The position numbers and the translations under genes are program-made. Of a stretch of 30,091 bases of DNA, positions 3,954-30,091 are shown one piece after another (position 1 is the first letter of the stretch; each line of letters begins with the position of its first letter). The stretch comes from a virus. The notes below the pieces were generated by a model. It was given only the letters and a program-made list of their open reading frames with translations. It was not told the origin of the DNA and did not search any database. The stretch covers positions 1 to 30,091 of the IMG/VR virus record IMGVR_UViG_3300006071_000066, one strand, 5' to 3'.

Positions 3954-4799
3954 ATGAAATTACCAGTCTATTTATACCCAAATTTGTTCGAAGTCATATT
4001 AGATTTGGATGACAATAATAACAGGATTTACCAAGTTATGTATCAACGACAATTAAAACTACAAAAAGGTGTTAAAAACACTATACAAGTTCAATTTAAA
4101 AATAGTGATCAAAAATTACTTAATGTCAGCTCCGGAACCTTCGTGATGTCGTTATTTGATGAAGTAAATCAACGTTCATTAATTCAAAAAAATATAATAA
4201 TTTTAGACGACGGAGTAACTCCATTACTTCGCGGGTTAGGGCAGGTAGTATTCACAGAAAGCGATTTAGAAGCATGCGAAAGTGTTTATTATAAAATAGG
4301 ATTTAAAGCATTAGATACCGATGGGAGCTACGTTCCGGCGTATGCTAACACTTATTATGATATAGCAGGAACTATCGAAGTACGTCACGATCTTTTTCCT
4401 ACATTGGTTCCTAGTCAAGAAGTAGATAATAATGCATTTATGGAATTCTATAATAGAGATACAAATGCATTACAATATGAATATTATTCGGGAAATTTAA
4501 ATGCAAATCCTGCCTTTAAATCAAATGTTGCTCTGCATACTGCTGCAGTCTATATGACCAATTATATAGGGCAAGTATTGATCGAAGGCACTTTGGAAAA
4601 TGATCCTGCCACTTACGGCAATTATGCAACAATTAGTAATAAAACTTATTCAGGGTTTACAGGTATCGATTATACAAATTTTAATGGGATTTTTTCAAAA
4701 ATACGAATACGTTATATCCCTGCTAAAAATCCAGTAACCGGTCAAAATAATGATACAGCATATGCCGGAACTGTTGACAAGGTGCTATATAGAAGTTAA
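3954..4799 (+). CDS. Probable virion structural protein
   Basis: A 281-residue protein that is beta-rich throughout, with MKLPVYLYPNLFEVILDLDDN at the N-terminus and repeated short strand-turn units (GTFVMSLFDEVNQ, YYKIGFKALDTDGSYVPAY, GTIEVRHDLFPTLVP). The N-terminal arrangement recalls baseplate or neck proteins whose first domain binds the tail. There are no enzymatic motifs, signal peptide or membrane segments. It has a late-type promoter directly at its start, which fits a late structural product. The exact place in the virion cannot be told. Confidence 0.6.
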   Translation: MKLPVYLYPNLFEVILDLDDNNNRIYQVMYQRQLKLQKGVKNTIQVQFKNSDQKLLNVSSGTFVMSLFDEVNQRSLIQKNIIILDDGVTPLLRGLGQVVFTESDLEACESVYYKIGFKALDTDGSYVPAYANTYYDIAGTIEVRHDLFPTLVPSQEVDNNAFMEFYNRDTNALQYEYYSGNLNANPAFKSNVALHTAAVYMTNYIGQVLIEGTLENDPATYGNYATISNKTYSGFTGIDYTNFNGIFSKIRIRYIPAKNPVTGQNNDTAYAGTVDKVLYRS

Positions 4800-4808
4800 A
4801 ATTTCTGT

Positions 4809-5804
4809 ATGAACCTCATACAGACAAGCTTACGTGCTTTCTTGCCTAACAAAAAAAAATCAACCAGTGGTGGGTGGATTTCTTTTAATAGTCCTTGCTG
4901 CGTACATAGAGGTGAAAGTAAAGATATAAGATCGCGTGGCGGTATTATGTTTACTGCTGAGGGATTTGTTTTTTCTTGTTTTAATTGCGGATTTAAAGCA
5001 GGATGGAGCCCGGGCAAACCGATTAGCAAGAATACTAAAAATTTACTTAAATGGTTAGGTGTTCCTGATTCAGAAATAAACAAAATTGTTCTAGAAGCAA
5101 TAAGAGAAAAAGATCAGATATCACCTGAAACAAAAGAATTTAATTTTAATTTAAAAGAAGAAGAATTTCCTAAAGATTGTTACTCTTTTAAAGACTTGAT
5201 AGCATTAGATTGCGATGAACCTGACTTTCTATTATGCAAGGAATATATAGAAAAACGAGGGTTTTCTATCGACGATTTTGATTGGCATTGGTCTGCAACC
5301 GCAGCTTATCGAGATAGAGTTATCATACCATTCTATCTTGAAAAAAAGCTAGTTGGATATACAGGACGCAAAGTTAAAGAAGGAATGCCTAAGTATCTAT
5401 CAAAAAGTCAGCCAGGATATGTTTTTAATTTAGATAGGCAGACATATGATAGACAATATGTTATAGTTGTAGAAGGACAGTTTGATGCAATAGGTATAGA
5501 TGGTGTTGCTATCATGACTAATGAACCTAGCGAAATTCAGTGTGCTAGAATCAATATGCTAGGTAAAAAAGTAATAGTAGTACCTGATAGAGATAAAGCA
5601 GGGGCTAAACTATTAAAAGCTGCGATAGATAACAATTGGGCAGTTAGTTTGCCTCCTTGGGAAGAAGATATTAAAGATGCTTCAGATGCCGTTAAGAAAT
5701 ATGGGCGGATCTATACTTTGGCAACAATATTACACTACCAGGAAGAAAATAAGATAAAAATAGAATTATATAAAAAGAAACTGGAGAAACTTGATGGCAA
5801 ATAA
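4809..5804 (+). CDS. 61: DNA primase, T4 gp61 type
   Basis: The 331-residue primase makes RNA primers for lagging-strand synthesis with the helicase encoded next to it. Seen: an N-terminal zinc site (C30/C31 and H33, then C57-x2-C60 in SCFNCGF), a linker, and a TOPRIM domain with the glutamate motif VEGQFDA near residue 221 and the acidic DRD motif (VVPDRDKAG) near residue 260. Length matches T4 gp61 (342). The C-terminal 11 bases overlap the helicase gene. No ribosome site is evident before ATG 4809. Confidence 0.92.
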   Translation: MNLIQTSLRAFLPNKKKSTSGGWISFNSPCCVHRGESKDIRSRGGIMFTAEGFVFSCFNCGFKAGWSPGKPISKNTKNLLKWLGVPDSEINKIVLEAIREKDQISPETKEFNFNLKEEEFPKDCYSFKDLIALDCDEPDFLLCKEYIEKRGFSIDDFDWHWSATAAYRDRVIIPFYLEKKLVGYTGRKVKEGMPKYLSKSQPGYVFNLDRQTYDRQYVIVVEGQFDAIGIDGVAIMTNEPSEIQCARINMLGKKVIVVPDRDKAGAKLLKAAIDNNWAVSLPPWEEDIKDASDAVKKYGRIYTLATILHYQEENKIKIELYKKKLEKLDGK

Positions 5805-7251
5805 AACCGATTATAGTTATGATGTTCAAAAAGTCTATTTAGAAATGTTTTTAGGTGATGCTGAAACATTTATTCGTTGCCAGAACATTTTTAATCCTGA
5901 TAATTTTGATCAACGACTACGAGCTGTTGCAAAATTTATGACTGAATATGTAGACCAATATAAAGTCATGCCCGAATCCTCGATTATTAATGCAAACTGT
6001 AAATCAGATTTAACTCCTGCAATTGTGCCTAAAGAAAATTATGATTGGCTGCTTAATGATTTTGAAAACTTTAGTAGGCATAAAAGTCTAGAGAGGGCTA
6101 TCATCGAAAGCAGTGATTTACTCGAATCAGGCGATTATGGGCCAGTGGAAAAGTTAATTCGCGATGCAATACAAGTAAGTCTGAGTCGTGATATGGGTAC
6201 CGATTATTGGGCCGATCCGCGTGCCAGGTTGATGAAACTAAAAGAAAATAACGGACAAGTTAGTACAGGATGGCCTAGTATTGATAGGAAACTGTATGGA
6301 GGATTTAAACGTGGTGAATTGAATATTTGGTGTGCAGGATCCGGCGGCGGTAAGAGTTTATTCTTAGCAAATCAAGGATTAAACTTTGCACTAGCAGGTC
6401 TTAATGTCATTTATTTTACGTTTGAGCTTAGTGAAGAACTAGTTAGCATGCGTATTGATAGTATGGTAACAGGAACTGCTACTAGAGACGTCTTTAAGAA
6501 CTTAGATGACGTAGAATTGAAGGTAGCCATGATGCGAAAGAAGGCGGCTGAAATTCAGGTCAAATATCTTCCGTCTGGCAAAAATTGTAACGATTTAAGG
6601 TCTTATTTGAAGGAATATCAGGTCAAAACAGGCAAAAAACCAGACATAATTTTAGTGGACTACTTAGACCTTATGATGCCTCTGTCGATAAAAGTAAGTC
6701 CGAGTGATCTATTTGTTAAAGACAAATATGTTAGTGAAGAACTACGTAATTTGGCTATGGAAATGCAAACGGTAGTAGTTACAGCAAGTCAGTTAAATCG
6801 TGCAGCAGTAGAAGAAATTGAGTTTGATCATAGTCATATTTCCGGTGGTTTAAGCAAGATTCAAACAGCCGATAATGTAATCGGTATCTTTACTAGCCGT
6901 GCTATGAAAGAAAGAGGGCGTTATCAGATACAGTTTATGAAAACACGCAGCAGTAGCGGTGTAGGACAAAAGGTCGATTTAGAGTTTAACATTGATACAT
7001 TGCGTATTAGTGATTTGGGTGAGGACGCTGAAGAGTCATTTAATCAACAGAGATCGAATTCTAGTACAAGTAATATTATGGAAAAGTTTAAAAAGACTAG
7101 TACTATTAAAGACCCTAATGTTGATACAGAAACTGGTGAAATTCGAAACCCAGATCCGTCGCAGGGAACAGCGGCTCCGAAAATTAAAGGAGTAGTTGAA
7201 AGCAGTAGAATACGCGCAATGTTGGCGAACTTAAATAGCGAAAAAGATTAA
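5794..7251 (+). CDS. 41: Replicative DNA helicase, T4 gp41 / DnaB-like
   Basis: The 485-residue helicase unwinds DNA at the fork as a hexamer and stimulates the primase. An N-terminal helical domain precedes the RecA-like core with Walker A GSGGGKS near residue 182, an arginine-rich helix, Walker B IILVDYLDLM near 290, a glutamine sensor region (TASQLNRAA) and the GGLSKIQTADNVIG segment typical of DnaB. The C-terminal 60 residues are a polar tail. I chose ATG 5794 over the preceding in-frame TTG because GGAG lies 7 bases upstream (5783-5786). Overlap with the primase gene implies coupled synthesis of the primosome pair. Confidence 0.93.
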   Translation: MANKTDYSYDVQKVYLEMFLGDAETFIRCQNIFNPDNFDQRLRAVAKFMTEYVDQYKVMPESSIINANCKSDLTPAIVPKENYDWLLNDFENFSRHKSLERAIIESSDLLESGDYGPVEKLIRDAIQVSLSRDMGTDYWADPRARLMKLKENNGQVSTGWPSIDRKLYGGFKRGELNIWCAGSGGGKSLFLANQGLNFALAGLNVIYFTFELSEELVSMRIDSMVTGTATRDVFKNLDDVELKVAMMRKKAAEIQVKYLPSGKNCNDLRSYLKEYQVKTGKKPDIILVDYLDLMMPLSIKVSPSDLFVKDKYVSEELRNLAMEMQTVVVTASQLNRAAVEEIEFDHSHISGGLSKIQTADNVIGIFTSRAMKERGRYQIQFMKTRSSSGVGQKVDLEFNIDTLRISDLGEDAEESFNQQRSNSSTSNIMEKFKKTSTIKDPNVDTETGEIRNPDPSQGTAAPKIKGVVESSRIRAMLANLNSEKD

Positions 7252-17154: not shown

Positions 17155-17214
17155 GACCTATACTACCCCTAAAAATCTGCTACGCAAATTTTCCATACCA
17201 TGGAGATCTTGACC
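17155..17214 (+). repeat. Intergenic repeat element, copy 1
   Basis: CTATACTACCCCTAAAAATC then TGCTACGCAAATTTTCC, then after a short gap GGAGATCTTGACC. Copies lie at 19,346-19,386 and 19,690-19,740, and an inverted short part (AGCGCAGATTTTT) lies at 17,115-17,127. AAAATCTGC and GCAAATTTT can pair around TAC with one mismatch. Confidence 0.65.
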
Positions 17215-17237
17215 TATGGCGGTTTATATAGTATAAT
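17209..17237 (+). promoter_or_regulatory. Strong sigma70-like promoter for the tandem paralogues
   Basis: TTGACC 17,209-17,214, exactly 17 bases, TATAAT 17,232-17,237. The predicted start of RNA is at about 17,244, one base before ATG 17,245. Confidence 0.75.
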
Positions 17238-17244
17238 CGAACGT

Positions 17245-17442
17245 ATGATAGATACGATAATATGCTACTTAGAAGATCCTCAATCTAAAAAGATTATACA
17301 AGCAGATTCGGAACATTATTATCTAACAGAAATTATAGAACATAATAAATTAATCCTACATCGGTTTGTAAAAAATAGCTCTGAACATACCCTTTTCTTA
17401 CTTAAATATAGCAATCATATAGAACCGGGAATAATGGAATAA
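17245..17442 (+). CDS. Tandem paralogue 1 (HTLFLLKYS family)
   Basis: A 65-residue protein. The frame is open from ATG 17,200, but that start would lie upstream of the promoter at 17,209-17,237, and starting at 17,245 gives the same length as the two paralogues that follow. The core is YLEDPQSKKII at the N-terminal side and RFVKNSSEHTLFLLKYSNHIE at the C-terminal side. It is the most diverged of the three copies. Function unknown; the lack of membrane segments and the acidic/aromatic make-up suggest a small soluble binder. Confidence 0.7.
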   Translation: MIDTIICYLEDPQSKKIIQADSEHYYLTEIIEHNKLILHRFVKNSSEHTLFLLKYSNHIEPGIME

Positions 17443-17445
17443 ACT

Positions 17446-17649
17446 ATGACAACACAAATTATATATGCTCAACAACTTAATGGAAAAATAATAAAAATAG
17501 ATCCCGCACATAGCTATCTAGATGATTGGGCTAGACAATACCAAATAACTCTTTATCGTTTCGATAAAAATAGTCTCGATCATACCCTTTTCTTGCTTAA
17601 ATACAGCGATCATATAGAAAATCATAATCACTCGGGTAGTGTAAAATGA
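17446..17649 (+). CDS. Tandem paralogue 2 (HTLFLLKYS family)
   Basis: A 67-residue protein with the family layout: NGKIIKIDPAHSYLDDWARQ then LYRFDKNSLDHTLFLLKYSD and HIE, with a His-rich tail. It follows paralogue 1 by 3 bases and overlaps paralogue 3 by 4 bases (ATGA), so one transcript should carry all three. No family name is known to me. Confidence 0.75.
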   Translation: MTTQIIYAQQLNGKIIKIDPAHSYLDDWARQYQITLYRFDKNSLDHTLFLLKYSDHIENHNHSGSVK

Positions 17650-17840
17650 AAATTCAATATATAGAAGATCCTCTAACAGGCACTATTATAAAACAATCTG
17701 CTGACTATTTTATTAGCGATGATTGGTTACATAGTCAAGGTCCCGGCGGGTTTAAATACTACGAATTCGATATCAATAGCCCTAAACACACTTTATTCTT
17801 ACTTAAATATAGTGACCATATAGTGCAGATTTATATATAG
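17646..17840 (+). CDS. Tandem paralogue 3 (HTLFLLKYS family)
   Basis: A 64-residue protein: YIEDPLTGTIIKQSADYFIS, DDWL, then YYEFDINSPKHTLFLLKYSD and HI. DP near the N-terminus, DDW in the middle and HTLFLLKYSDHI at the end are shared with paralogue 2, showing gene duplication in place. It is followed 8 bases later by the acetyltransferase gene. Confidence 0.75.
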   Translation: MKIQYIEDPLTGTIIKQSADYFISDDWLHSQGPGGFKYYEFDINSPKHTLFLLKYSDHIVQIYI

Positions 17841-19924: not shown

Positions 19925-19949
19925 AATAGGGGGACGCAGCCCCCCTATT
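19925..19949. terminator. Strong G/C stem-loop
   Basis: Perfect 9-bp stem AATAGGGGG / CCCCCTATT around ACGCAGC. It carries the GGGACGC-AGCCCC core found in several later hairpins. No T-run follows. Confidence 0.6.
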
Positions 19950-20058
19950 GCATGCACGCTACACACACGCACTGCTTGCATATTGCAGTACACTGTGCTA
20001 GCGCATGCAGCGCACTAGCATATTGTATGCACATTGTACAATTAAATTTAAGTAATAT

Positions 20059-20137
20059 AACTTTGCATAACTTAACAAAACTATGCTTGCATTAAGTGTG
20101 CTATATGCTAGCATTAGCAACGTAGCAATAACGCTAC
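20059..20137 (+). promoter_or_regulatory. Promoter-leader cassette 1
   Basis: Upstream box AACTTTGCAT+AACTTAACAAAA (20,059-20,080), 6 bases, TTGCAT (20,087-20,092), 16 bases, TGC+TAGCAT (20,109-20,114). The hairpin CGTAGC-AATAAC-GCTAC begins at 20,121, seven bases after the -10. Confidence 0.8.
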
Positions 20138-20158
20138 ATAACACACAGCAGTAACAGT

Positions 20159-20506
20159 ATGCAAACGCAACAACAAGCAGCAACGCAAGCACAAACGCAA
20201 ACAAAGCGCAAGTACACTAAGCGCAAACAGCAGTTGCGTTTAGTTACTAGTGCTGCTACTACAGCAGCAGCGCAAGCAGCAGCAAACGCTACTAACAATG
20301 CTACAGCAAAGCGCAACAGCGCATTGCACACGCAGCGTATGCTTAACTTTGCAACAGCGCAAAACGCAACGCAAATTAACAAAGCATTGTATACTAGCAA
20401 AGTGCGTTATTTGCAAGCATGTATTGCACATAACACAGCAATGCAGCAGTTGCAAGCGCAAATTACTGCACACTTGCTTAAAGTAGCAGTAGTATTACAG
20501 TATTAA
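20159..20506 (+). CDS. Unknown 115-residue basic protein lacking D, E, G, P and W
   Basis: The frame follows promoter cassette 1 directly and ends before a strong terminator, which is the main evidence for it. The product is Gln/Ala/Thr/Lys-rich (MQTQQQAATQAQTQTKRKYT start), helical in outlook and very basic, with no acidic residue at all. The DNA has no GA, GG, TC or CC, so TGA stops cannot occur and open frames arise more easily; other frames here are open too. There is no Shine-Dalgarno. It could be a DNA/RNA-binding protein, or the transcript rather than the protein may be the functional product. Confidence 0.5.
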   Translation: MQTQQQAATQAQTQTKRKYTKRKQQLRLVTSAATTAAAQAAANATNNATAKRNSALHTQRMLNFATAQNATQINKALYTSKVRYLQACIAHNTAMQQLQAQITAHLLKVAVVLQY

Positions 20507-20543
20507 AATAAAGCGCACACAGTAACTACAACACTATACAGTT

Positions 20544-20577
20544 GCACACGCTATGCAAGTAGCGTGTGCTTTTTTTT
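20544..20577 (+). terminator. Rho-independent terminator
   Basis: Perfect 10-bp stem GCACACGCTA / TAGCGTGTGC around TGCAAG, followed by eight T. It is the best terminator in the window and ends the 20,159 unit. Confidence 0.9.
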
Positions 20578-20699
20578 GCGCATAACAAACACAGCAGCGC
20601 ACGCAGCGCACGCAGTATAGAGGGACGTTTAAACTATATGCGTTGTAGTTTTAAGTAGCAAGTTACACACAGCAGCGCACGCAGCGCACGCGCTGCACA

Positions 20700-20714
20700 G
20701 GGACGCAGCGTCCC
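20700..20714. repeat. GGGACG-CAG-CGTCCC hairpin
   Basis: A 6-bp perfect stem with a three-base loop, member of the GGGACGCRG stem-loop set. Confidence 0.65.
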
Positions 20715-20809
20715 AGTTTTGTGCGCTATAAAACTTGTATAGTTTTTGTATGTATAAAAAAATGTGTATGTATAACGTCCCTGTGCTAACGTGTGCAGCG
20801 CGTATAAAA

Positions 20810-20888
20810 AACTTTGCATAACTTAACAAAAAAACGCTTGTATTACTTGCGCGTTATGCTAAACTAAAAAACGTAGCAGTACGCTACG
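20810..20888 (+). promoter_or_regulatory. Promoter-leader cassette 2
   Basis: The upstream box (20,810-20,831) is identical to cassette 1, then 6 bases, TTGTAT (20,838-20,843), 16 bases, TGC+TAAACT (20,860-20,865), and hairpin CGTAGC-AGTAC-GCTACG at 20,872-20,888. Confidence 0.8.
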
Positions 20889-20908
20889 CAACACAAAAAG
20901 CACAGCAT

Positions 20909-21475
20909 ATGCAACAACAGCAACAACAAGTAGCGCAGCAAGTAGCAGCGCTATTAGCAAACACAAGCGTAACTTTTGCTTGTGTACAGTACACAACGCA
21001 AGTAGCAACAGCAGCAGCGCATAAGCACGTAAACATACAAAAGCACACAGTTGCTAACGTGCAATTGTTTGCAAACATTAACGCTGCTACAAGCGTATTT
21101 GCTAACGCTGTAAAGCGTAATGCACAGCAACATGCTAACTGCGCAGCAGCAGTTGCAAACTTTACAGCACAGCAAAATTACTTTATGCACACTAACTGCT
21201 ACAGCATTGTGCAGCATAAAAACAACAGTAATTTGTACTTGTATTGCATTTACAACAATGCGCGTAGTTACTACACAATTAACAACGTGCGTGCTACTAA
21301 GCAGCAAGTTGCACAATACTTAACAGCAAGCGCAGCACAGCAGTTACTTAACGCTAGCAACGTAACGCACAACAAAACGCACAACGTAACGCATAGCGTT
21401 GTAGTGCGTACAATTGCTTTGCACAACATACAGCGCATTAAAGCAAAGCGTAAACAGTTACAGTTTGCAGCGTAA
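20909..21475 (+). CDS. Unknown 188-residue protein lacking D, E, G, P and W
   Basis: The longest frame of the biased tract follows cassette 2 and ends before a terminator. It opens with six Gln after Met, then an Ala/Thr/Val-rich part, and the C-terminal 75 residues look like a normal folded domain: NLYLYCIYNNARSYYTINN, ATKQQVAQYLTASAAQQLL and VVVRTIALHNIQRIKAKRK. That part reads as if Asp/Glu/Gly had been replaced by Asn/Gln/Ala in an ordinary sequence. It has no acidic residue. There is no Shine-Dalgarno. Coding is likely because of this domain-like C-terminus; function unknown. Confidence 0.6.
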   Translation: MQQQQQQVAQQVAALLANTSVTFACVQYTTQVATAAAHKHVNIQKHTVANVQLFANINAATSVFANAVKRNAQQHANCAAAVANFTAQQNYFMHTNCYSIVQHKNNSNLYLYCIYNNARSYYTINNVRATKQQVAQYLTASAAQQLLNASNVTHNKTHNVTHSVVVRTIALHNIQRIKAKRKQLQFAA

Positions 21476-21497
21476 CTAAGCGCACAGCAACACGCAG

Positions 21498-21529
21498 CAC
21501 ACGCTATGCAAATAGCGTGTGTTTTTTTT
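21498..21529 (+). terminator. Rho-independent terminator
   Basis: Stem CACACGCTA / TAGCGTGTG around TGCAAA, followed by eight T. Nearly the same as the terminator at 20,544. Confidence 0.9.
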
Positions 21530-21701
21530 GCGCGTAACAAACACAAACACAATAGCAGTTGTATAGAGGGACGTTTAAACTATGCGCGTTGTAGTTTTAC
21601 AAGTAGCAGCAGCGTGCGCTGTACAGAGGGACGCAGCGTGTATGTATAATGTTAACGCCCCCCTCTATTGTGCGCGTGCGTGCTGTTACAGCGTGTGTTT
21701 A

Positions 21702-21780
21702 AACTTTGCAAAACTTAACAAAAATGTGCTTGCGTTAGTTGTGCATTGTGCTATTATTAGCAACGTAGCAATAACGCTAC
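21702..21780 (+). promoter_or_regulatory. Promoter-leader cassette 3
   Basis: Box AACTTTGCAA+AACTTAACAAAA (21,702-21,723), 6 bases, TTGCGT (21,730-21,735), 16 bases, TATTAT (21,752-21,757) with TGC ahead, hairpin from 21,764. Confidence 0.8.
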
Positions 21781-21799
21781 AAACACAAAGTAACTTAAA

Positions 21800-21979
21800 A
21801 TGCATATTGCAACTAATATTTACTTAAAAAATACAGCGCAAGTAACGCAACAACAAATTGCGTTGTTTAACGCGCTGCAACAGCAAGTTAACGCACTTGT
21901 AGCACAGTACGCTAATATTATTAGCGACGACGCTGTAAGCGCGTACATTTGCGACGACGCTAACGTAGCGTTGTATTAA
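21800..21979 (+). CDS. Small unknown protein (59 residues) behind cassette 3
   Basis: Reads MHIATNIYLKNTAQVTQQQI at the start, then a helical Gln/Ala/Asn middle and two ISDD / ICDD repeats near the end. It has no Gly, Pro, Glu or Trp; its only GA dinucleotides lie in the GACGAC pairs that encode Asp-Asp. The coding strand has no TC, CC or GG. No Shine-Dalgarno. A long hairpin and a second gene follow on the same transcript. Function unknown. Confidence 0.6.
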   Translation: MHIATNIYLKNTAQVTQQQIALFNALQQQVNALVAQYANIISDDAVSAYICDDANVALY

Positions 21980-22040: not shown

Positions 22041-22274
22041 ATGCATACACTGGAAGTAAATTATCCGCTTGCGTTGTATATTAACAACGCAGACATTGAT
22101 AGCGACATTATTGCTGCTGTAGCTGTAGCTAGCAACGGCAGTGGCGCGGGTTTTGGCATACGCGACATTACGTTTACGTTTAACACTGCTGCTGCTGCTA
22201 ATGCTGCTGCTGCGCGTGCTAAAACTGTGCATAACAGCATAACGTGCAGCGTGTACGCTAACAGCTACGCTTAA
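22041..22274 (+). CDS. Unknown 77-residue protein, second gene of the cassette 3 unit
   Basis: MHTLEVNYPLALYINNADID at the N-terminus, a Gly-rich turn (SNGSGAGFGIRDIT) and an Ala-rich helix (NTAAAANAAAARAK). The alternating strand-turn-helix layout looks like a genuine small domain, and acidic residues are present here. The coding strand holds a single TCC as its only TC/CC. No ribosome site is seen before the ATG. Function unknown. Confidence 0.65.
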   Translation: MHTLEVNYPLALYINNADIDSDIIAAVAVASNGSGAGFGIRDITFTFNTAAAANAAAARAKTVHNSITCSVYANSYA

Positions 22275-22279
22275 ACGCT

Positions 22280-22311
22280 AGCAGCTAGTTTGCACATGCA
22301 AGCTAGCTGCT
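22280..22311. terminator. Stem-loop after the 22,041 gene
   Basis: AGCAGCTAG / CTAGCTGCT arms with a second inner stem TTGCA / TGCAA. No T-run follows. Confidence 0.6.
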
Positions 22312-22332
22312 GTTACACAGCGGGGCATTAAC

Positions 22333-22383: not shown

Positions 22384-22404
22384 TAGAGGGGCCGCGTCCC
22401 TCTA
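22384..22404. terminator. TAGAGGG stem-loop
   Basis: TAGAGGG / CCCTCTA around GCCGCGT; in the reverse direction it carries GGGACGCGGCCCC. It lies just before cassette 4. Confidence 0.65.
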
Positions 22405-22435
22405 AAATACTTTGCATTTTTTTGCTGTGTAGTTT

Positions 22436-22515
22436 AACTTTGCATAACTTAACAAAAATGTGCTTGCGTTAGTTGTGCATTGTGCTATTATTAGCAACGT
22501 AGCAATAACGCTACG
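22436..22515 (+). promoter_or_regulatory. Promoter-leader cassette 4
   Basis: Upstream box 22,436-22,457 identical to cassettes 1 and 2, 6 bases, TTGCGT (22,464-22,469), 16 bases, TATTAT (22,486-22,491), hairpin CGTAGC-AATAAC-GCTACG from 22,498. Confidence 0.85.
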
Positions 22516-22538
22516 CATTACTACAAAGTAGTTACACA

Positions 22539-22730
22539 ATGCAAATACAACTTACAATTGCGCTTAACAACAAAAACAGCAAAAAAGTTGCAATGCAGCA
22601 ACTTATGCTATTTAAAAAACTAGAGCAGTATGCTAATATGCTTGTAGAGCAGCATACTGACGCTGTTAACAGCAAAGTGCAAATAGTTAAAGTACACGTA
22701 TACGACGACGCTAATAATTTAATAGTTTAA
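22539..22730 (+). CDS. Unknown 63-residue protein behind cassette 4
   Basis: A strand-helix-strand protein: MQIQLTIALNNKNSKKVAMQ, then QQLMLFKKLEQYANMLVEQH and VQIVKVHVYDDANNLIV. The ferredoxin-like alternation suggests a folded domain. No TC, CC or GG on the coding strand and no Shine-Dalgarno. A hairpin and a gene with a clear ribosome site follow on the same transcript. Function unknown. Confidence 0.7.
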   Translation: MQIQLTIALNNKNSKKVAMQQLMLFKKLEQYANMLVEQHTDAVNSKVQIVKVHVYDDANNLIV

Positions 22731-23226: not shown

Positions 23227-23716
23227 ACAGTTTTCGTTGAGTGCTTTGTGTTGTGCTTGCGGACTTAGTGTCCGCTTTGGGTGGCAAGGTCCTGGACTTT
23301 AGCCACCCTTTTTTTTGACCGGAACTTCTGGAAAACTCTTCTTCATAAGAGTTAGAGAGATCGCTGCAGCGAAACTGGGACTTTAAACCTCAGATCAATC
23401 CAAACTTGATCCAATCTATGATTCACAAGATTTTCCAAAAGTTAAGGCCCCAAACCCTCAAAAGAAACCTCTTAGGAATCATAGGCTTAAACATAAGCTC
23501 AATGGAAAATTCAACAGTATCATAGAGCTAAGTTCAACTAGATGGGTATAAGAGTTCCTGGGTTATAGCTAGCAGACTGGGGCTTTATACCCAAACATGC
23601 TATGGGGTATAAGATCTAAGATCTTGATCTTAGTGACCTCTAGCGGGGTATTTGAATAGGTAAGGAAGCGGGCGTCCCTAAGGCACCCGCTGAGGTAGTA
23701 TTAGTGTGTAGTTAGT
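23227..23716. other. 490-base gene-free stretch with structured RNA potential
   Basis: It contains the terminator at 23,279-23,316, then about 220 bases of plain sequence, then GGGTATAA / TTATACCC / GGGTATAA (23,544, 23,585, 23,605), the palindrome CTAAGATC-TT-GATCTTAG (23,616-23,633), an AGCGGGGTATT motif (23,642) and GCGGG / CCCGC arms near 23,668-23,691. No convincing reading frame on either strand. Confidence 0.6.
23279..23316 (+). terminator. Rho-independent terminator
   Basis: Long stem GGGTGGC...GCCACCC with inner GTCC / GGAC pairing, followed by eight T. It ends the 23,119 transcript. A small GCGGAC / GTCCGC hairpin precedes it. Confidence 0.9.
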
Positions 23717-23857
23717 TTAGAACAGATGTTGGAACAGTTTGTACAGGACTAAAGCAATCGCTGCTGTACAAGCCAAGTCCAAATAGACGTCGAACGCCTG
23801 GTCCGCTTTTTCCGTACGCTGTTCATAGTAGTCTTCAGTTTCACATTCGTCATACAT
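23717..23857 (-). CDS. Small protein with one C-terminal membrane segment
   Basis: The 46-residue start at 23,857 is chosen because AGGAG lies 7 bases upstream and the promoter is at 23,892-23,920; a longer frame to 23,920 would run into the promoter. MYDECETEDYYEQRTEKADQ is a very acidic head, followed by a hydrophobic tail AACTAAIALVLYKLF-type segment (LACTAAIALVLYKLFQHLF). It should be an inner-membrane tail-anchored protein. Function unknown. Confidence 0.7.
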   Translation of the reverse strand: MYDECETEDYYEQRTEKADQAFDVYLDLACTAAIALVLYKLFQHLF

Positions 23858-23891
23858 CGGTTGCTCCTGCTGTGTTGTTAAACATAATATA

Positions 23892-23941
23892 CTTATACGC
23901 TCAACAAAGTTTAATGTCAACCAAACAATTTTGTTAAGTTT
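23892..23941 (-). promoter_or_regulatory. Sigma70-like promoter with an AACTTAACAAAA box
   Basis: On the minus strand TTGACA (23,915-23,920), 17 bases, TATAAG (23,892-23,897). Just upstream, at 23,929-23,941, stands AAACTTAACAAAA, the same box that begins the plus-strand cassettes. Confidence 0.7.
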
Positions 23942-23953
23942 CGTTAAAACAGG

Positions 23954-23982
23954 TTGTGTTTATCTATCGCTGTACATATATT
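23954..23982 (+). promoter_or_regulatory. Promoter with operator-like repeats, for the 28-residue gene
   Basis: TTGTGT (23,954-23,959), 17 bases, TATATT (23,977-23,982). CTATCGCTG lies in the spacer (23,964-23,972) and again at 24,055-24,063; its inverse CAGCGATAG is at 23,997-24,005. Confidence 0.55.
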
Positions 23983-24106
23983 AGACGAGTACGCAGCAGC
24001 GATAGCGTGTGGTCAAGTTGTGTTATGCATAGTTGTGTTGTGTTATCGCCCGCGCTATCGCTGTGTGCGTATACAGTAATTAACTTAATCTAAGGAGTCA
24101 AGTGTT

Positions 24107-24193
24107 ATGTCACGTCCACGTATGAAAGCAGGCACTACCGCACGCGAGCGTGCAAAGCGTGCTGCACGACTGCACCGTCGCGTTCGACGTTAA
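24107..24193 (+). CDS. 28-residue highly basic protein
   Basis: Reads MSRPRMKAGTTARERAKRAA then RLHRRVRR: ten Arg and two Lys in 28 residues with a single acidic residue. AAGGAG lies 10 bases before ATG and a perfect terminator follows the stop, so it is a complete single-gene unit. Such peptides may bind RNA, DNA or the ribosome, or inhibit a host enzyme. The 125-base leader holds an 11-bp inverted repeat. Confidence 0.65.
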   Translation: MSRPRMKAGTTARERAKRAARLHRRVRR

Positions 24194-24218
24194 CGGTGTA
24201 CTGATTGCATAGACGCAA

Positions 24219-24248
24219 GTAGCGCAGCGGGACGCTGCGCTACTTTTT
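24219..24248 (+). terminator. Rho-independent terminator
   Basis: Perfect stem GTAGCGCAGC / GCTGCGCTAC around GGGAC, then five T. Confidence 0.85.
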
Positions 24249-24292
24249 CCTAAGTTGCGGCCCCGGATGTAAACGCTTACATTCGCTAGATA

Positions 24293-24369
24293 AACTTTGC
24301 GTAACTTAACAAAACTATACTTGTGTTAAGTGTGCTGTATGCTATTATTAGCAACGTAGCAGTTGCTAC
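24293..24369 (+). promoter_or_regulatory. Promoter-leader cassette 5
   Basis: Box AACTTTGCGT+AACTTAACAAAA (24,293-24,314), 6 bases, TTGTGT (24,321-24,326), 16 bases, TATTAT (24,343-24,348), hairpin CGTAGC-AGTT-GCTAC from 24,355. Loop is four bases, the stem is kept. Confidence 0.85.
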
Positions 24370-24392
24370 ATAACACAGCATAGGACACAACA

Positions 24393-24650
24393 ATGTTTAA
24401 CAATATTACAGATGTGCAAAAAGAGCTTATAGCAAGCGCAGCAACGCAAAACAACGGGCTTGTTGCAGTTATTTTTGCATTAGCGTTTGCAGCAGGTGAC
24501 TTTGATACTGTGTATTACATTTATAGCAGCAAGGAACTGTTTACGCTTGCAAACTTTGCAAACGACGAAGAAATTTACGCAAAAGCAGCAGCACTAGGCG
24601 ACGCGCTGCTTACGTTTGCGCGTGCAGAAGCTGAGCACACACTAAACTAA
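24393..24650 (+). CDS. Unknown 85-residue protein behind cassette 5
   Basis: A helical, acidic protein: MFNNITDVQKELIASAATQN, then a hydrophobic helix GLVAVIFALAFAAGDFDTVY, YIYSSKELFTLANFANDEEI and an Ala-rich end. It resembles a small all-helical repeat domain. Coding strand: no TC, no CC. AGGAC lies 9 bases before the ATG, the only first gene behind a cassette with a ribosome site. Function unknown. Confidence 0.7.
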   Translation: MFNNITDVQKELIASAATQNNGLVAVIFALAFAAGDFDTVYYIYSSKELFTLANFANDEEIYAKAAALGDALLTFARAEAEHTLN

Positions 24651-24663
24651 CAATTACACGCAG

Positions 24664-24687
24664 CGTGCGTAGTGTTATCTACGCACG
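24664..24687. terminator. Intergenic stem-loop inside the cassette 5 unit
   Basis: CGTGCGTAG / CTACGCACG around TGTTAT, parallel to the element at 22,741, again before a gene with a Shine-Dalgarno. Confidence 0.65.
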
Positions 24688-24714
24688 TTGCATTGCACAA
24701 TAAGGAAGCACAAC

Positions 24715-24954
24715 ATGAACACATTGGCTGCTAGTATGACAACTGCTGCTAAATGCAAAAAGATATTGCGCACAGCGAAACTGATGCGCAAGTGGGAACA
24801 GCGTGCTACTAATGCTAGGCTGACACTAGCAGCACTTGAGCAGCAAGTAGCACACGGCAAACTAAAACGCACAGCACAGGCACGAACAGCAAACATAGCG
24901 CGTACTGCTGAAATTAAAGCCTTGGAATACAAAAAACGCTTACTTGAGCACTGA
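24715..24954 (+). CDS. Unknown basic coiled-coil protein, second gene of the cassette 5 unit
   Basis: ATG 24,715 follows AAGGA by 8 bases, so I prefer it to the in-frame 24,688 start. The 79-residue protein is a single long helix candidate: LMRKWEQRATNARLTLAALE, QQVAHGKLKRTAQARTANIA, RTAEIKALEYKKRLLE. Basic, no Pro after the N-terminus, heptad-like Leu/Ala spacing. One CC and no TC on the coding strand. It could be a nucleic-acid-binding coiled coil. Function unknown. Confidence 0.7.
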   Translation: MNTLAASMTTAAKCKKILRTAKLMRKWEQRATNARLTLAALEQQVAHGKLKRTAQARTANIARTAEIKALEYKKRLLEH

Positions 24955-25020
24955 GGCAGAAATTGTTTAGCGGGACGCGGCCCCTCTACTGTAAACTGTT
25001 AGCAGTTTTTTGCATTTTAA

Positions 25021-25100
25021 AACTTTACTTAACTTAACAAAAAAACACTTGCACTACTTGCGCTGTATGCTACTATTAACAACGTAGCAATAACGCTACG
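25021..25100 (+). promoter_or_regulatory. Promoter-leader cassette 6
   Basis: Box AACTTTACTT+AACTTAACAAAA (25,021-25,042), 6 bases, TTGCAC (25,049-25,054), 16 bases, TACTAT (25,071-25,076), hairpin CGTAGC-AATAAC-GCTACG from 25,083. A reduced GGGACGCGGCCCC motif lies ahead at 24,972. Confidence 0.85.
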
Positions 25101-25122
25101 CACAACTTAAAAGTTAACAACT

Positions 25123-25428
25123 ATGCTTGCTGTTATTAATGTTGAAAGCGATGACAATGAAACTACTACGCAGTATGCGTGCAACTTTACTGTAGAATGC
25201 GACGGTAGCAGCATTTGGGCTGACACAACAGGGCGCAAAGTACATGTTACTGCTATTAGTGTACACGAATGCAATGGCTACAAAAGCATTTATGTAACAC
25301 ACGACAGCAACTGGCACATTTATACTGACAAGGGCTTTGTTGCTGCTATTAGCAACGCATTGGGCTACGCTGTAGACTTTACAGAGCAGGGTATGCAGGA
25401 AGACAACTTTGCAAGTATGGAAGCGTAA
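25123..25428 (+). CDS. Unknown 101-residue protein behind cassette 6
   Basis: A beta-rich protein with repeated strand pairs: MLAVINVESDDNE, TQYACNFTVECDGSSIWADT, KVHVTAISVHECNGYKSIYV, WHIYTDKGFVAAISNALGYA. It looks well folded and has normal acidic content, yet the coding strand has no TC and no CC. No Shine-Dalgarno before the ATG. A terminator-like hairpin and two more genes follow. Function unknown. Confidence 0.75.
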   Translation: MLAVINVESDDNETTTQYACNFTVECDGSSIWADTTGRKVHVTAISVHECNGYKSIYVTHDSNWHIYTDKGFVAAISNALGYAVDFTEQGMQEDNFASMEA

Positions 25429-25438
25429 CTAGCACGCA

Positions 25439-25469
25439 GCGCACAGTAGAGGGACTACTGTGCGCTTTT
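25439..25469 (+). terminator. Strong stem-loop with a short T-run
   Basis: GCGCACAGTAG / CTACTGTGCGC around AGGGA, then TTTT. It may partly end the cassette 6 transcript before the downstream pair. Confidence 0.75.
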
Positions 25470-25492
25470 ATGCACATATAGGACACTAACAA

Positions 25493-25696
25493 ATGCATAC
25501 TTGCACAGGACGCACAATGCGTTATCATTGCTTGGGCATCGACGGAATGAATCCAGATCGTACAGGCGATTGGGTCCGTTACGCAGACTATCTCTCATTG
25601 TTGCAGCAATTAGACGAAATTCGTATAACGCTGCTCCAGCTTCGAACACCTATAGCGGGGTATCATGATGTATCGTCCAAGTCAAGCAACTATTGA
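25493..25696 (+). CDS. Unknown 67-residue protein
   Basis: MHTCTGRTMRYHCLGIDGMN then GDWVRYADYLSLLQQLDEIR, a WVRY-plus-helix pattern that small phage proteins often show. AGGAC lies about 8 bases upstream. Dinucleotide use turns normal from here on (TC and CC appear). It overlaps the next gene by 32 bases. Function unknown. Confidence 0.65.
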   Translation: MHTCTGRTMRYHCLGIDGMNPDRTGDWVRYADYLSLLQQLDEIRITLLQLRTPIAGYHDVSSKSSNY

Positions 25697-25967
25697 CGCT
25701 ATCCTCAAAAAGGAACTGACTGAAGCTGACATTGCACGCTATCGGCGTGCCTCACGTCTATACAAGATCTCAGGCGTGATTGCTATCACAATCTGGGCAG
25801 GTTGGATTGTGACTGGCTTCTTACACTACAACAAAGCCAACGACGTCTTGTTTGAAGGCCTGTGGGCATCATTCTTCTTTTGGTGTTACAGCATTTGGTT
25901 CAGTGACTGCGATATGCATCGTATGGACTATGTAGATCGCTTGGATCGAGCAAAACGATCTAAGTAA
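25665..25967 (+). CDS. Small two-segment membrane protein
   Basis: A 100-residue protein with a polar N-terminal helix (SQATIDAILKKELTEADIAR), a first membrane segment VIAITIWAGWIVTGFLHY, a second one WASFFFWCYSIWFSD, and a basic tail. Start is ATG 25,665 or the adjacent ATG 25,668. The bases before it, AGCGGGGTATC, form a repeated motif rather than a usual ribosome site. It overlaps the preceding gene. Likely inner membrane; function unknown. Confidence 0.75.
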   Translation: MMYRPSQATIDAILKKELTEADIARYRRASRLYKISGVIAITIWAGWIVTGFLHYNKANDVLFEGLWASFFFWCYSIWFSDCDMHRMDYVDRLDRAKRSK

Positions 25968-25992
25968 TGATTAGTTGAGGTTCACTTAATTT

Positions 25993-26038
25993 TTGCGGGG
26001 CTGCGTCCCGCAATACTGCAGAGGTTATCTGCAGTATT
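25993..26038. terminator. Two adjoining stem-loops
   Basis: TTGCGGG / CCCGCAA around GCTGCGT, overlapping AATACTGCAG / CTGCAGTATT around AGGTTAT. The pair ends the 25,665 transcript; there is no long T-run. Confidence 0.65.
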
Positions 26039-26113
26039 CCAGATCTTTCCAGACTCTCTTCACTGTTTCAAACTCTTTTAGCCATATAGTCCCGGATCTG
26101 CAGCGGGGTATCG

Positions 26114-26142
26114 TTGACTGCTTAACATAAGACTGTTAGTAT
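26114..26142 (+). promoter_or_regulatory. Sigma70-like promoter
   Basis: TTGACT (26,114-26,119), 17 bases, TAGTAT (26,137-26,142). ACATAAGACT occurs in the spacer and again just downstream, a possible operator. An AGCGGGGTATC motif lies right before it. Confidence 0.65.
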
Positions 26143-26174
26143 TAAACATAAGACTACTGAACAGGAGTTTGTTG

Positions 26175-26318
26175 ATGAACTGTTTGTTGGCTATAACTGC
26201 AATAGCAGTTAGTGTATGGGTTGTGGCGTTGTTGTATGCAAGCAACGAACTAGCGCGTGATGAGCGTATCCGTAAGATGTATCAGGAAGGAATTTTTAAA
26301 AATAGTTCCAAAAAGTAG
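26175..26318 (+). CDS. Small membrane-anchored protein (47 residues)
   Basis: MNCLLAITAIAVSVWVVALL is an N-terminal membrane segment, followed by YASNELARDERIRKMYQEGI and a basic end. AGGAG lies 8 bases before ATG 26,175. With a single N-terminal anchor the polar tail should face the cytoplasm. The next promoter starts at its stop codon. Function unknown. Confidence 0.65.
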   Translation: MNCLLAITAIAVSVWVVALLYASNELARDERIRKMYQEGIFKNSSKK

Positions 26319-26347
26319 TTGACACGCACCGGTCTGTTTGCTATAAC
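26319..26347 (+). promoter_or_regulatory. Sigma70-like promoter
   Basis: TTGACA (26,319-26,324), 17 bases, TATAAC (26,342-26,347), serving the gene at 26,380. Confidence 0.75.
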
Positions 26348-26379
26348 TAAATTGTTGATAACATAACACAAGGTGATTT

Positions 26380-26676
26380 ATGCCGCGCGTAGGATATAAC
26401 TTAGCAACTGCAGATCTCAACGATGAATTTGTAGAACGCTTAAAGAAGCCCATTCGGCGAGTGTGGGACATGATCGGCTACGATGTGCTGCGAGATGCCG
26501 AAACGATAGGCGAGCGCATCGATAACGAATCCGCTGTTGAATGCTGCATTGATGGTGAACGCTTGGCTTGTGAAGCACGAGACAGTCATGCTAACGCTGC
26601 ACTTGATCTAATGCTTACTGAGTATGGCTATCCAAAAGTTCTGCATTTCCTTTCCAAAAAAATACGTTTAGTCTAA
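26380..26676 (+). CDS. Unknown 98-residue soluble protein
   Basis: AAGGTGA precedes ATG 26,380. The protein is acidic-to-neutral and helical: LNDEFVERLKKPIRRVWDMI, DAETIGERIDNESAVECCID, GERLACEARDSHANAALDLM. Two cysteines lie side by side. No family is recognised. A strong hairpin follows the stop, so it is a single-gene unit. Confidence 0.75.
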   Translation: MPRVGYNLATADLNDEFVERLKKPIRRVWDMIGYDVLRDAETIGERIDNESAVECCIDGERLACEARDSHANAALDLMLTEYGYPKVLHFLSKKIRLV

Positions 26677-26691
26677 AGAACTCTCGTACCC

Positions 26692-26734
26692 TACAGTGGG
26701 ACTTTGAGCAGTGAAACTCTTTGGTCCCACTGTA
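26692..26734 (+). terminator. Stem-loop after the 26,380 gene
   Basis: Perfect 11-bp stem TACAGTGGGAC / GTCCCACTGTA with a 21-base loop. No T-run. Confidence 0.65.
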
Positions 26735-26951
26735 CCCTGAGTATAACCTCTTTATGGTTTCTGAATGGTATCTACGATGATCGTATGGGTGGACAGGGAC
26801 TTTAAAATATTTCTTGCGCATCTGTTAGTTTTATTGTAGACTTTATGTAAGATCAAAAGGCGACAGCCGCTCTGAGGGAGGGGGGCTTAACCCGAAGTTG
26901 TTCTGACTGTCTGGGACTCAATCTAACTTGTTTTTTTTTGAGGTGATTCAA

Positions 26952-26985
26952 GGTCTGCAACCGTATTCTCTAACCGCTGCAGACC
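26952..26985. terminator. GGTCTGCA / TGCAGACC stem-loop
   Basis: Eight perfect base pairs with an 18-base loop, between oppositely directed units. It could end transcription from either side. Confidence 0.5.
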
Positions 26986-27027
26986 CTGTGTCGATGCTTT
27001 GAAGTCCTTATGACCTCAAGTCATAGA

Positions 27028-27282
27028 CTAATAGAAGAAAGCGTGTACACGCGCACGTAGTTCAAGCTGTGAGGGCGTATACTCGATATCATGCCAAATG
27101 CCCGTAGCAGGATCGCAAGCACGACGGATCTCGTGTGCGTAGATGTCGCCCGTTTCGGTGTAGGCGCCCTCTACTTCTGCCATGCGGAGATTGCCTTTAC
27201 GGTTGTCCATCATAGTGCCATACCAACCATTGTGCTGTTGAATGCGCCAGCCCTTCTTAATGTCGTTTGTGCGGATTGCCAT
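27028..27282 (-). CDS. Small conserved-looking phage protein
   Basis: An 84-residue protein with a beta-barrel-like N-terminal half (IKKGWRIQQHNGWYGTMMDN, RMAEVEGAYTETGDIYAHEI). Proteins of this type with DIKKGxRI...NGWxGTM...VAEVEG are, from memory, common in large phages and some plasmids, but have no assigned role. AAGGAGC lies 8 bases upstream of the ATG and the promoter at 27,316 is clear. Confidence 0.8.
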   Translation of the reverse strand: MAIRTNDIKKGWRIQQHNGWYGTMMDNRKGNLRMAEVEGAYTETGDIYAHEIRRACDPATGIWHDIEYTPSQLELRARVHAFFY

Positions 27283-27315
27283 AACAGTTGCTCCTTATTG
27301 CTAACCAACGTGTAT

Positions 27316-27344
27316 ATAGTACTACCTAGATTTTCCAAATGCAA
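27316..27344 (-). promoter_or_regulatory. Sigma70-like promoter
   Basis: TTGCAT, 17 bases, TACTAT on the minus strand, for the 27,028-27,282 gene. Confidence 0.65.
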
Positions 27345-27487
27345 CCACTTAGATTGCCCACATGACCTATCTAGAGGTTTACAAAGTCATATGCCTCTAA
27401 ACCTGCAGCGGGGCATTTGACGGGTACTAGGCCCCGGGTACAACATCAATCTAATGTATAAAACCTATAGCGGGGTATTTGCGGATA

Positions 27488-29877: not shown

Positions 29878-30091
29878 CCAGTTCTCGTACACGAAACTCA
29901 CGTATAATGCCGCCCTGTGCAGATCCCCCCACAGGCAGACATCGTTTAGCACGCTCTGCATCCGCTTGCGTTGCATAAACTACTACAGGTTGCGTTGCAT
30001 AAACTACTACAGGTTGCGTTGCATAAACTACTACAGGTTGCGTTGCATAAACTACTACAGGTTGCGTTGCATAAACTACTACAGGTTGCGT
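29870..30091 (-). CDS. C-terminal part of a repeat protein, cut by the window end
   Basis: The frame enters from the right edge and stops at 29,870-29,872. It starts with at least five repeats of the octapeptide TQPVVVYA, then QADAERAKRCLPVGGSAQGG and IIREFRVRELVD. The non-repeat tail looks like a normal small domain. The repeats may be real beta-strand units or an assembly collapse; the true N-terminus is outside the window. Function unknown. Confidence 0.65.
   Translation of the reverse strand, partial: TQPVVVYATQPVVVYATQPVVVYATQPVVVYATQPVVVYATQADAERAKRCLPVGGSAQGGIIREFRVRELVD
29966..30091 (+). repeat. 24-base tandem repeat at the window end
   Basis: Five perfect copies of TTGCGTTGCATAAACTACTA+CAGG and the first six bases of a sixth. 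The length is a multiple of three and keeps the minus-strand frame open. Confidence 0.95.

Follow-up and report, generated by a model that had tools for sequence, protein, structure and literature searches.

GR/YC-free tracts in gene cassettes of a T4-like jumbo phage lineage: possible avoidance of the phage's own DNA mark

The window, which is the whole stretch of 30,091 nucleotides that was analysed, belongs to a phage of a T4-like jumbo phage lineage. Its left two thirds, with a GC content of about 33%, carry T4-like genes, including those for a DnaB-type helicase and a primase. By the DnaB helicase (48.5% identity), PA5oct and its kin are the nearest cultured relatives. From 19.8 kb onwards, small cassettes are found on the plus strand, which consist of a promoter/leader repeat, an ORF and a hairpin terminator (Table 1; promoters and terminators were identified by eye). 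Two tracts in this region are free of GA and GG (GR) and of TC and CC (YC, the same pairs on the other strand).

Table 1. Features of the right-hand part of the window.
Feature	Position	Strand	Remarks
GR/YC-free tract 1	19945..20620	.	676 nt; promoter, leader, ORF, terminator; exact count
GR/YC-free tract 2	20781..21566	.	786 nt; exact count
ORF, 115 aa	20159..20506	+	without D/E/G/P/W
ORF, 188 aa	20909..21475	+	without D/E/G/P/W; conserved family
ORF, 59 aa	21800..21979	+	4 Asp codons are its sole GR
ORF, 77 aa	22041..22274	+	partly clean
ORF, 63 aa	22539..22730	+	GR confined to Asp/Glu codons
ORF, 85 aa	24393..24650	+	coding strand YC-free
ORF, 101 aa	25123..25428	+	coding strand YC-free
Promoter/leader repeat, copy 1	20050..20137	+	88 nt; promoter by eye
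Promoter/leader repeat, copy 2	20801..20888	+	
Promoter/leader repeat, copy 3	21693..21780	+	
Promoter/leader repeat, copy 4	22427..22514	+	
Promoter/leader repeat, copy 5	24284..24371	+	
Promoter/leader repeat, copy 6	25012..25099	+	
Terminator-like hairpin and T run	20544..20576	+	GR/YC-free; by eye; repeat family D8
Terminator-like hairpin and T run	21497..21529	+	GR/YC-free; by eye; repeat family D8
Boundary element GGGGGACGCAGCCCCCC	19929..19945	.	
Boundary element GTATAGAGGGACG...	20615..20653	+	copy 2 at 21561-21599; repeat family D7
Boundary hairpin GGGACGCAGCGTCCC	20700..20714	.	
Boundary element GTCCCT	20777..20782	.	
Boundary elements GAGGGACG ... CGCCCCCCTC	21626..21665	.	
Boundary element GAGGGGCCGCGTCCCTCT	22386..22403	.	

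The window also holds a tandemly repeated 24-bp unit (TTGCGTTGCATAAACTACTACAGG) at 29966-30091, reaching the contig end, and at 17200-17840 three consecutive small ORFs that share a stretch like HTLFLLKYSDHIE near their end and look like a tandem triplication. Between the right-hand genes (23636-27481), a 19-nt element like ACCTATAGCGGGGTATTTG occurs in four copies (79-100% of the reference).

As a sequence phenomenon the tracts are certain. The initial annotation had reported both to lack all four pairs, and an exact count reproduced them to the base: they are the two longest GA/GG/TC/CC-free stretches of the window, tract 2 being the longest. When dinucleotides were counted across the window and compared with 2000 base-composition shuffles, 143.0 forbidden pairs were expected in the 676-nt tract (minimum 117) and 163.0 in the 786-nt tract (minimum 127), while none is observed. 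Between the tracts an exact count finds 13 forbidden pairs, at three sites: GAGGGA (20,620-20,625), the hairpin GGGACGCAGCGTCCC and TCCC (20,778-20,781). All but two of the listed forbidden pairs between cassettes of the window are contained in boundary elements. Further free runs have 262 nt (21,665-21,926), 222 nt (22,402-22,623), 159 nt (24,986-25,144) and 158 nt (22,165-22,322). The remaining 12 dinucleotides are about as frequent as this rule, together with base composition, would predict, the largest gaps being those of CA (209 vs 179), TT (96 vs 70) and TA (136 vs 162); enrichment of GC and depletion of AT are consequences of the four-pair rule.

The genes at 22.0-23.0 and 24.4-25.4 kb follow a looser rule, with GR restored by Asp, Glu and Gly codons and YC close to zero. 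In five looser genes of the window, YC is avoided more strictly than GR. At 23.0-24.0 kb and from 25.5 kb onward, dinucleotides are close to ordinary, and the window as a whole contains 4,919 forbidden pairs. Promoters obey the rule as well as genes do, and the view that codon choice cannot explain it was thus confirmed. One narrow literature search, by titles and the beginnings of abstracts, returned no earlier description of such tracts.

The effect of the rule on proteins is best seen in the 188-aa protein of tract 2. An ordinary member of its family, encoded at locus L101, has 4 Asp, 9 Glu, 5 Gly and 3 Pro residues, while the versions from the window, L098, L099 and L131 have 0-2 such residues in total. 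Where ordinary relatives carry Asp, Glu, Gly, Pro or Trp, clean versions mostly have Asn, Gln, Thr, Ala, Ser or Tyr. Fifteen homologues were aligned, and seven clean ones were compared with five ordinary ones, the intermediate L129, L134 and L137 being omitted. Counted as sequence pairs, which are no independent events, the counterpart of Asp is mainly Asn (106 of 272) and that of Trp mostly Tyr (16 of 21), while for Glu the most frequent one is Gln (85 of 336; Thr 58, Lys 20). Pressure at the DNA level thus appears to override protein sequence, with five amino acids apparently given up in the tracts. In three acidic genes of L098 (starts 4641, 5206 and 6490), YC is zero and 98 of 100 leftover GR pairs either belong to codons for Asp, Glu, Gly or Trp or immediately follow Met or Trp. 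We therefore conclude that the DNA is under a cost per site and that acidic proteins pay it.

Two of these L098 genes (4641-5054 and 6490-6906), which are situated in its clean region and lack YC, code for paralogous acidic proteins (MNVDKIKQ...) without Pro, which are possibly DNA-mimic-like. For the 188-aa family, no Pfam or PHROG family was found below an E-value of 0.001 with 7 members (best 0.0037). The structure of the protein is predicted with confidence (pLDDT 91); the model has no PDB match at E 0.001, while three unnamed phage proteins match at E below 0.001 in a viral structure library, and a weak WYL/Sm-like resemblance (best Z 5.2, BrxR) suggests no mechanism. A Shine-Dalgarno contrast between homologues was seen by eye, but missing sites are an unclear mark of clean genes inside the window, where the comparison gave 2 of 8 clean or partly clean genes against 7 of 20 left-hand genes.

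With the 188-aa protein as query, 17 loci were found, including the window's near-twin L095 and the near-duplicates L133/L134. In 10 distinct rows (window/L095, L096, L097, L098, L099, L100, L131, L133/L134, L136 and L137), GR and YC in the family gene are both at most 0.17 of expectation. The gene is intermediate in L129, L132 and L138 (0.30-0.60), shows weak depletion in L130 (GR/YC 0.82/0.58), is nearly ordinary in L101 (0.71/0.75) and ordinary in L135 (0.94/0.95). The initial annotation had considered that relatives with ordinary dinucleotides in the same gene would speak against the finding. Such relatives do exist (L101 and L135), but the amino acids have changed with the dinucleotides, and thus the finding stands and the constraint is lineage-specific.

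Around the family genes, the longest free runs have 783 nt (L099), 575 nt (L131) and 542 nt (L098). A cassette in L137 (8,521-8,979) has a single forbidden pair and ordinary DNA on both flanks, including that between 8,979 and about 9,800. In partly clean stretches GA is at 0.24 and GG at 0.34 of expectation, and all eight GAN/GGN triplets are depleted, GGC least (0.61). Boundary elements of L098, with the form TGCCCCA...TGGGGCA, hold nearly all leftover forbidden pairs between cassettes, as judged by eye. In two different phages, similar boundary motifs (GGGGGGTCGGGG(T/C)TATATAAT) occur directly after the last clean cassette (L099:11530-11560 and L130:11570-11600).

As a control, runs of at least 70 nt were counted for the GR/YC rule and for its mirror (RG/CY). 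There are 11 vs 0 in the near-twin record G001, 29 vs 0 in G004 (39.0 of 41.2 kb), 11 vs 0 in G005, 9 vs 0 in G003, 8 vs 1 in G009, 6 vs 0 in G011, 4 vs 0 in G006, 3 vs 0 in G008, 1 vs 0 in G010 and 9 vs 1 in PA5oct; the longest mirror run in any record of this comparison does not exceed 99 nt. Half of the CAjan genome and the helicase-locus controls L036, L079, L085 and L092 have 0 vs 0. No run exceeds the maximum of 10 shuffles in T4 and N4, nor in the portions searched of CBB (138 of 378 kb), Atu_ph07 (260 of 490 kb) and XaC1 (140 of 349 kb). As the tracts that surround relatives of a single gene reach 783 nt in contigs of other metagenomes, and as free runs recur in cultured PA5oct, the assembly artefact that had been considered at the outset can be dismissed.

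The longest GR/YC-free run of PA5oct has 217 nt, against a maximum of 94 in 40 shuffles, and stops exactly before the tRNA array. Others have 149, 143, 141, 105 and 104 nt. These runs are located at promoter-like sequences and are mostly intergenic, with two in small genes. Three lncRNA starts were located, and two of the promoters are clean: there are 0 forbidden pairs against 9.5 expected for ncRNA001 (-77 to -1) and 0 against 7.9 for ncRNA002 (-50 to -1), but 4 against 9.4 for ncRNA004 (-50 to -1). In the two former cases it is the DNA upstream of the RNA-seq-annotated 5' end that is clean, while the transcripts themselves are not. Another GR/YC-free promoter-like sequence (NC_071039.1:27594-27698) is followed by a short hairpin and is perhaps a small RNA gene. 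The Arenbergviridae (PA5oct, Wroclawvirus), as nearest cultured kin, thus share short free runs at promoter-like sequences with the window, but differ in that these runs are at most 217 nt long and mostly intergenic, and in that tblastn found no relative of the 188-aa protein in the phage collection searched.

A modification system with a GR motif had been predicted before a TGT-like enzyme was found. PA5oct gp168 contains ADSGGFQ, a TGT motif. Its gene adjoins a glycosyltransferase-like gene (a weak assignment, E 1e-3 to 2e-3) and is near epimerase-like, phosphoribosyltransferase-like and QueE genes; PA5oct also codes for GTP cyclohydrolase I (FolE) and two QueD-like proteins besides QueE. 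The gp168 family occurs in 6 of 24 records searched (PA5oct, G008, G010, G017, G018 and G019), which are the lineage's records of at least 200 kb among them; T4, Atu_ph07, CBB and XaC1 have no relatives. For the relative from L325, an AlphaFold model (pLDDT 82.7) was compared with the PDB, and each of the 50 matches listed is a tRNA-guanine transglycosylase (best E 3.5e-7, probability 1.00), although the structures match over a moderate extent (TM 0.32-0.38 relative to the query and 0.45-0.54 relative to the target). The TGT-like protein of the relatives is thus predicted to have a tRNA-guanine-transglycosylase fold, and a protein of this fold may act on tRNA. In L325, matches to the TGT-like protein, the glycosyltransferase-like protein, GTP cyclohydrolase, the phosphoribosyltransferase and QueE are found within about 7 kb. 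L325 and the window's near-twin are both from metagenome 3300025598 and might belong to one phage; the window's own phage may carry the cluster as well.

Flanks of up to 8 kb were analysed around the best 80 of at least 579 TGT-like loci. Of these loci, 54 have a gp167-like glycosyltransferase, 28 a GTP cyclohydrolase, 20 an epimerase-like gene, 19 a QueE and 18 a phosphoribosyltransferase-like gene, while queries with nt-1 QueC and PA5oct QueD have no match listed around these 80 loci. Long tracts are absent at all 80 (best run 59 nt), though such loci need not include the early region, and record G010 has the TGT-like gene yet one single run of 70 nt. QueC was not over the cut-off in any of 20 records, PA5oct included, and DpdA was found by PF01702 in none of 20. 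Profiles for DpdA and DpdA2 gave no credible match in the records searched, where neither a 9g/CAjan-type nor an nt-1-type DpdA was found, and hhalign of the TGT-like protein against known DpdA was not significant (probabilities 0.3% and 0.2%). Two DpdA candidates were rejected, namely PA5oct gp208 (phmmer against the PDB was empty and a TGT motif was not seen) and a weak profile match in G008 (E 0.0075), which by eye is glycosyltransferase-like. In sets that consist mostly of fragments but include complete PA5oct, the C5 methylase family DNA_methylase (PF00145) was found in 0 of 16 records, N6_N4_Mtase (PF01555) in 0 of 17, and the thymidylate-synthase family in 2 of 17, PA5oct among them, so that a hydroxymethyl-base system may also be considered.

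We tentatively favour the explanation that the tracts are early transcription units which, together with their promoters, are kept free of the phage's own modification motif, the mark being 7-deazaguanine at GR; we regard this as quite possible, if short of probable. In the previous infection, a transglycosylase of the TGT/DpdA kind would replace G before a purine (GR, with YC opposite) by 7-deazaguanine, which the neighbouring glycosyltransferase may enlarge, and packaged phage DNA would be marked almost everywhere. Host RNA polymerase would then have to read the immediate-early units directly from marked DNA, each mark costing some transcription. Under this cost, units and promoters would have lost GR and YC on both strands, initially through synonymous substitutions and later at the expense of Asp, Glu, Gly, Pro and Trp, while other genes would be free from the rule. 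Runs of G or C between the cassettes (of the GGGACGCAGCGTCCC type) would carry marks at high density and may act as roadblocks. We infer four points of this explanation: action of the enzyme on DNA at GR, hindrance of RNA polymerase by the mark, early reading of the tract units, and presence of the gene cluster in the window's own phage. The full version, with a glycosylated 7-deazaguanine at G before purine, unmarkable early genes and G/C-run elements as marked RNA polymerase roadblocks, is more doubtful. The initial annotation had listed a nuclease or modification system with GR/YC specificity among the causes; its modification half agrees with the favoured explanation and with the TGT fold in relatives, while a DNA-cutting nuclease is at odds with the ordinary DNA adjacent to the tracts.

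DpdA phages are among the closest known parallels. In phage CAjan, DpdA marks GA and GGC, a motif close to the GR of the window's lineage, and one phage with dpdA alone is suggested to use a host-made or exogenous precursor (PMC8306585). As in CAjan, 9g and nt-1, a TGT-fold enzyme occurs beside GTP cyclohydrolase and QueE in relatives of the window, but in sequence the TGT-like protein does not significantly resemble DpdA or DpdA2, QueC was not found, and a glycosyltransferase-like gene is a neighbour. CAjan and 9g differ in having no tracts comparable to those of the window: the longest free run has 65 nt in CAjan (mean 42 and maximum 50 in shuffles; 59.0 of 59.7 kb covered) and 47 nt in 9g (mean 41 and maximum 73 in shuffles; 50.0 of 56.7 kb covered). 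The two longest runs of CAjan, with 65 and 60 nt, surpass the shuffled maximum. The 60-nt run (KP064094:53678-53737) is found in a 46-codon gene and is also longer than any mirror-rule run of that genome (41 nt). The family genes of L101, L135 and L130, which are ordinary or nearly so, speak against the 7-deazaguanine model.

Alternatively, a phage or virion protein might stop or block transcription on DNA that contains GR/YC, early units being exempt by lack of the signal, which we consider rather unlikely. T4 Alc, which is described to block the transcription of DNA that contains dCMP and is referred to as a termination factor that senses modification locally (PMC8056088), is a precedent for such an action on unmodified cytosine DNA. 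In both cases self and host DNA would be told apart by a base-level feature during transcription, but early units would here be exempt by sequence, while T4 is exempt by modification. A constraint that is two-stranded, graded and tracks transcription units with their promoters would fit. However, the spacers between cassettes of the window are equally clean, and many other genes of the same phage genomes are ordinary.

The two-stranded rule, its extension to promoters and the adjoining ordinary DNA argue against Rho alone, PAM avoidance, restriction cutting and deaminase decay. We think it improbable that the early mRNAs are shaped by avoidance of Rho, a factor that binds YC dimers, together with GR-recognising factors, as which the anti-Shine-Dalgarno, RegB, CsrA and CmdT are known. 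YC dimers are used as rut descriptors in Rho terminator studies (PMC9160355), and the stricter avoidance of YC in the five looser window genes fits an effect on the RNA strand. However, a single RNA factor would not clear both pairs, and YC is not depleted alone on the RNA strand downstream of the start, as Rho avoidance would have it, since GR is depleted too. The partly clean family genes of L096, L097, L129, L133, L136 and L137 together have 17 GR vs 47 YC pairs that D/E/G/P do not force, compared to the 52 vs 85 that synonymous choice would give in three genes of the window, and thus sense YC is not the more avoided in these six. An RNA-level constraint alone, as initially proposed, also disagrees with the two PA5oct promoters that are clean upstream of RNAs that are not, the third start not being clean.

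Avoidance by first-entering DNA of a host restriction nuclease with GR/YC specificity, or of CRISPR with such a PAM or a YC-type one, is less probable again. Avoidance of restriction sites or PAMs occurs in phage genomes, several type I PAMs resemble TC/CC, and both strands are affected here, as by such selection against short motifs. In the present case, though, exclusion of two-base motifs is complete over hundreds of bases within single transcription units, has cost five amino acids and adjoins ordinary DNA. With 4,919 forbidden pairs in the window, a cutter would find targets, and the ordinary DNA between clean cassettes (23.0-24.0 kb of the window; 8,979 to about 9,800 of L137) likewise speaks against the PAM avoidance considered initially.

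Decay through mutations that a cytosine deaminase introduces at YC, the context of APOBEC/DddA-type enzymes, was suggested initially but is highly improbable, as deamination would lower C and raise YT, but C in the tracts (0.235-0.243) is close to that of ordinary DNA at 26-30 kb (0.248), RC is raised (0.23-0.24 per nt vs 0.137), TT+CT is not (0.11 vs 0.147), no C>T excess is seen (11 of the 38 pairs of L096 missing from the window are C>T-type, counting overlapping pairs without direction), and Glu is aligned with Lys far less often than with Gln.

In summary, exclusion of four of the 16 dinucleotides strips five amino acids from conserved proteins, a case in which selection on DNA outranks protein chemistry. 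If the full version with marked roadblocks is true, the sequence itself encodes a map of the positions where an epigenetic mark is permitted. For Callisto, a relative of PA5oct, transcription is described to depend on the host (PMC11079468). If the cause is a modified base at which transcription is blocked, the motifs of modification and the early promoters would be readable from sequence alone, and the cultured phage PA5oct would make it testable how the first genes are read in a virus with heavily modified DNA.
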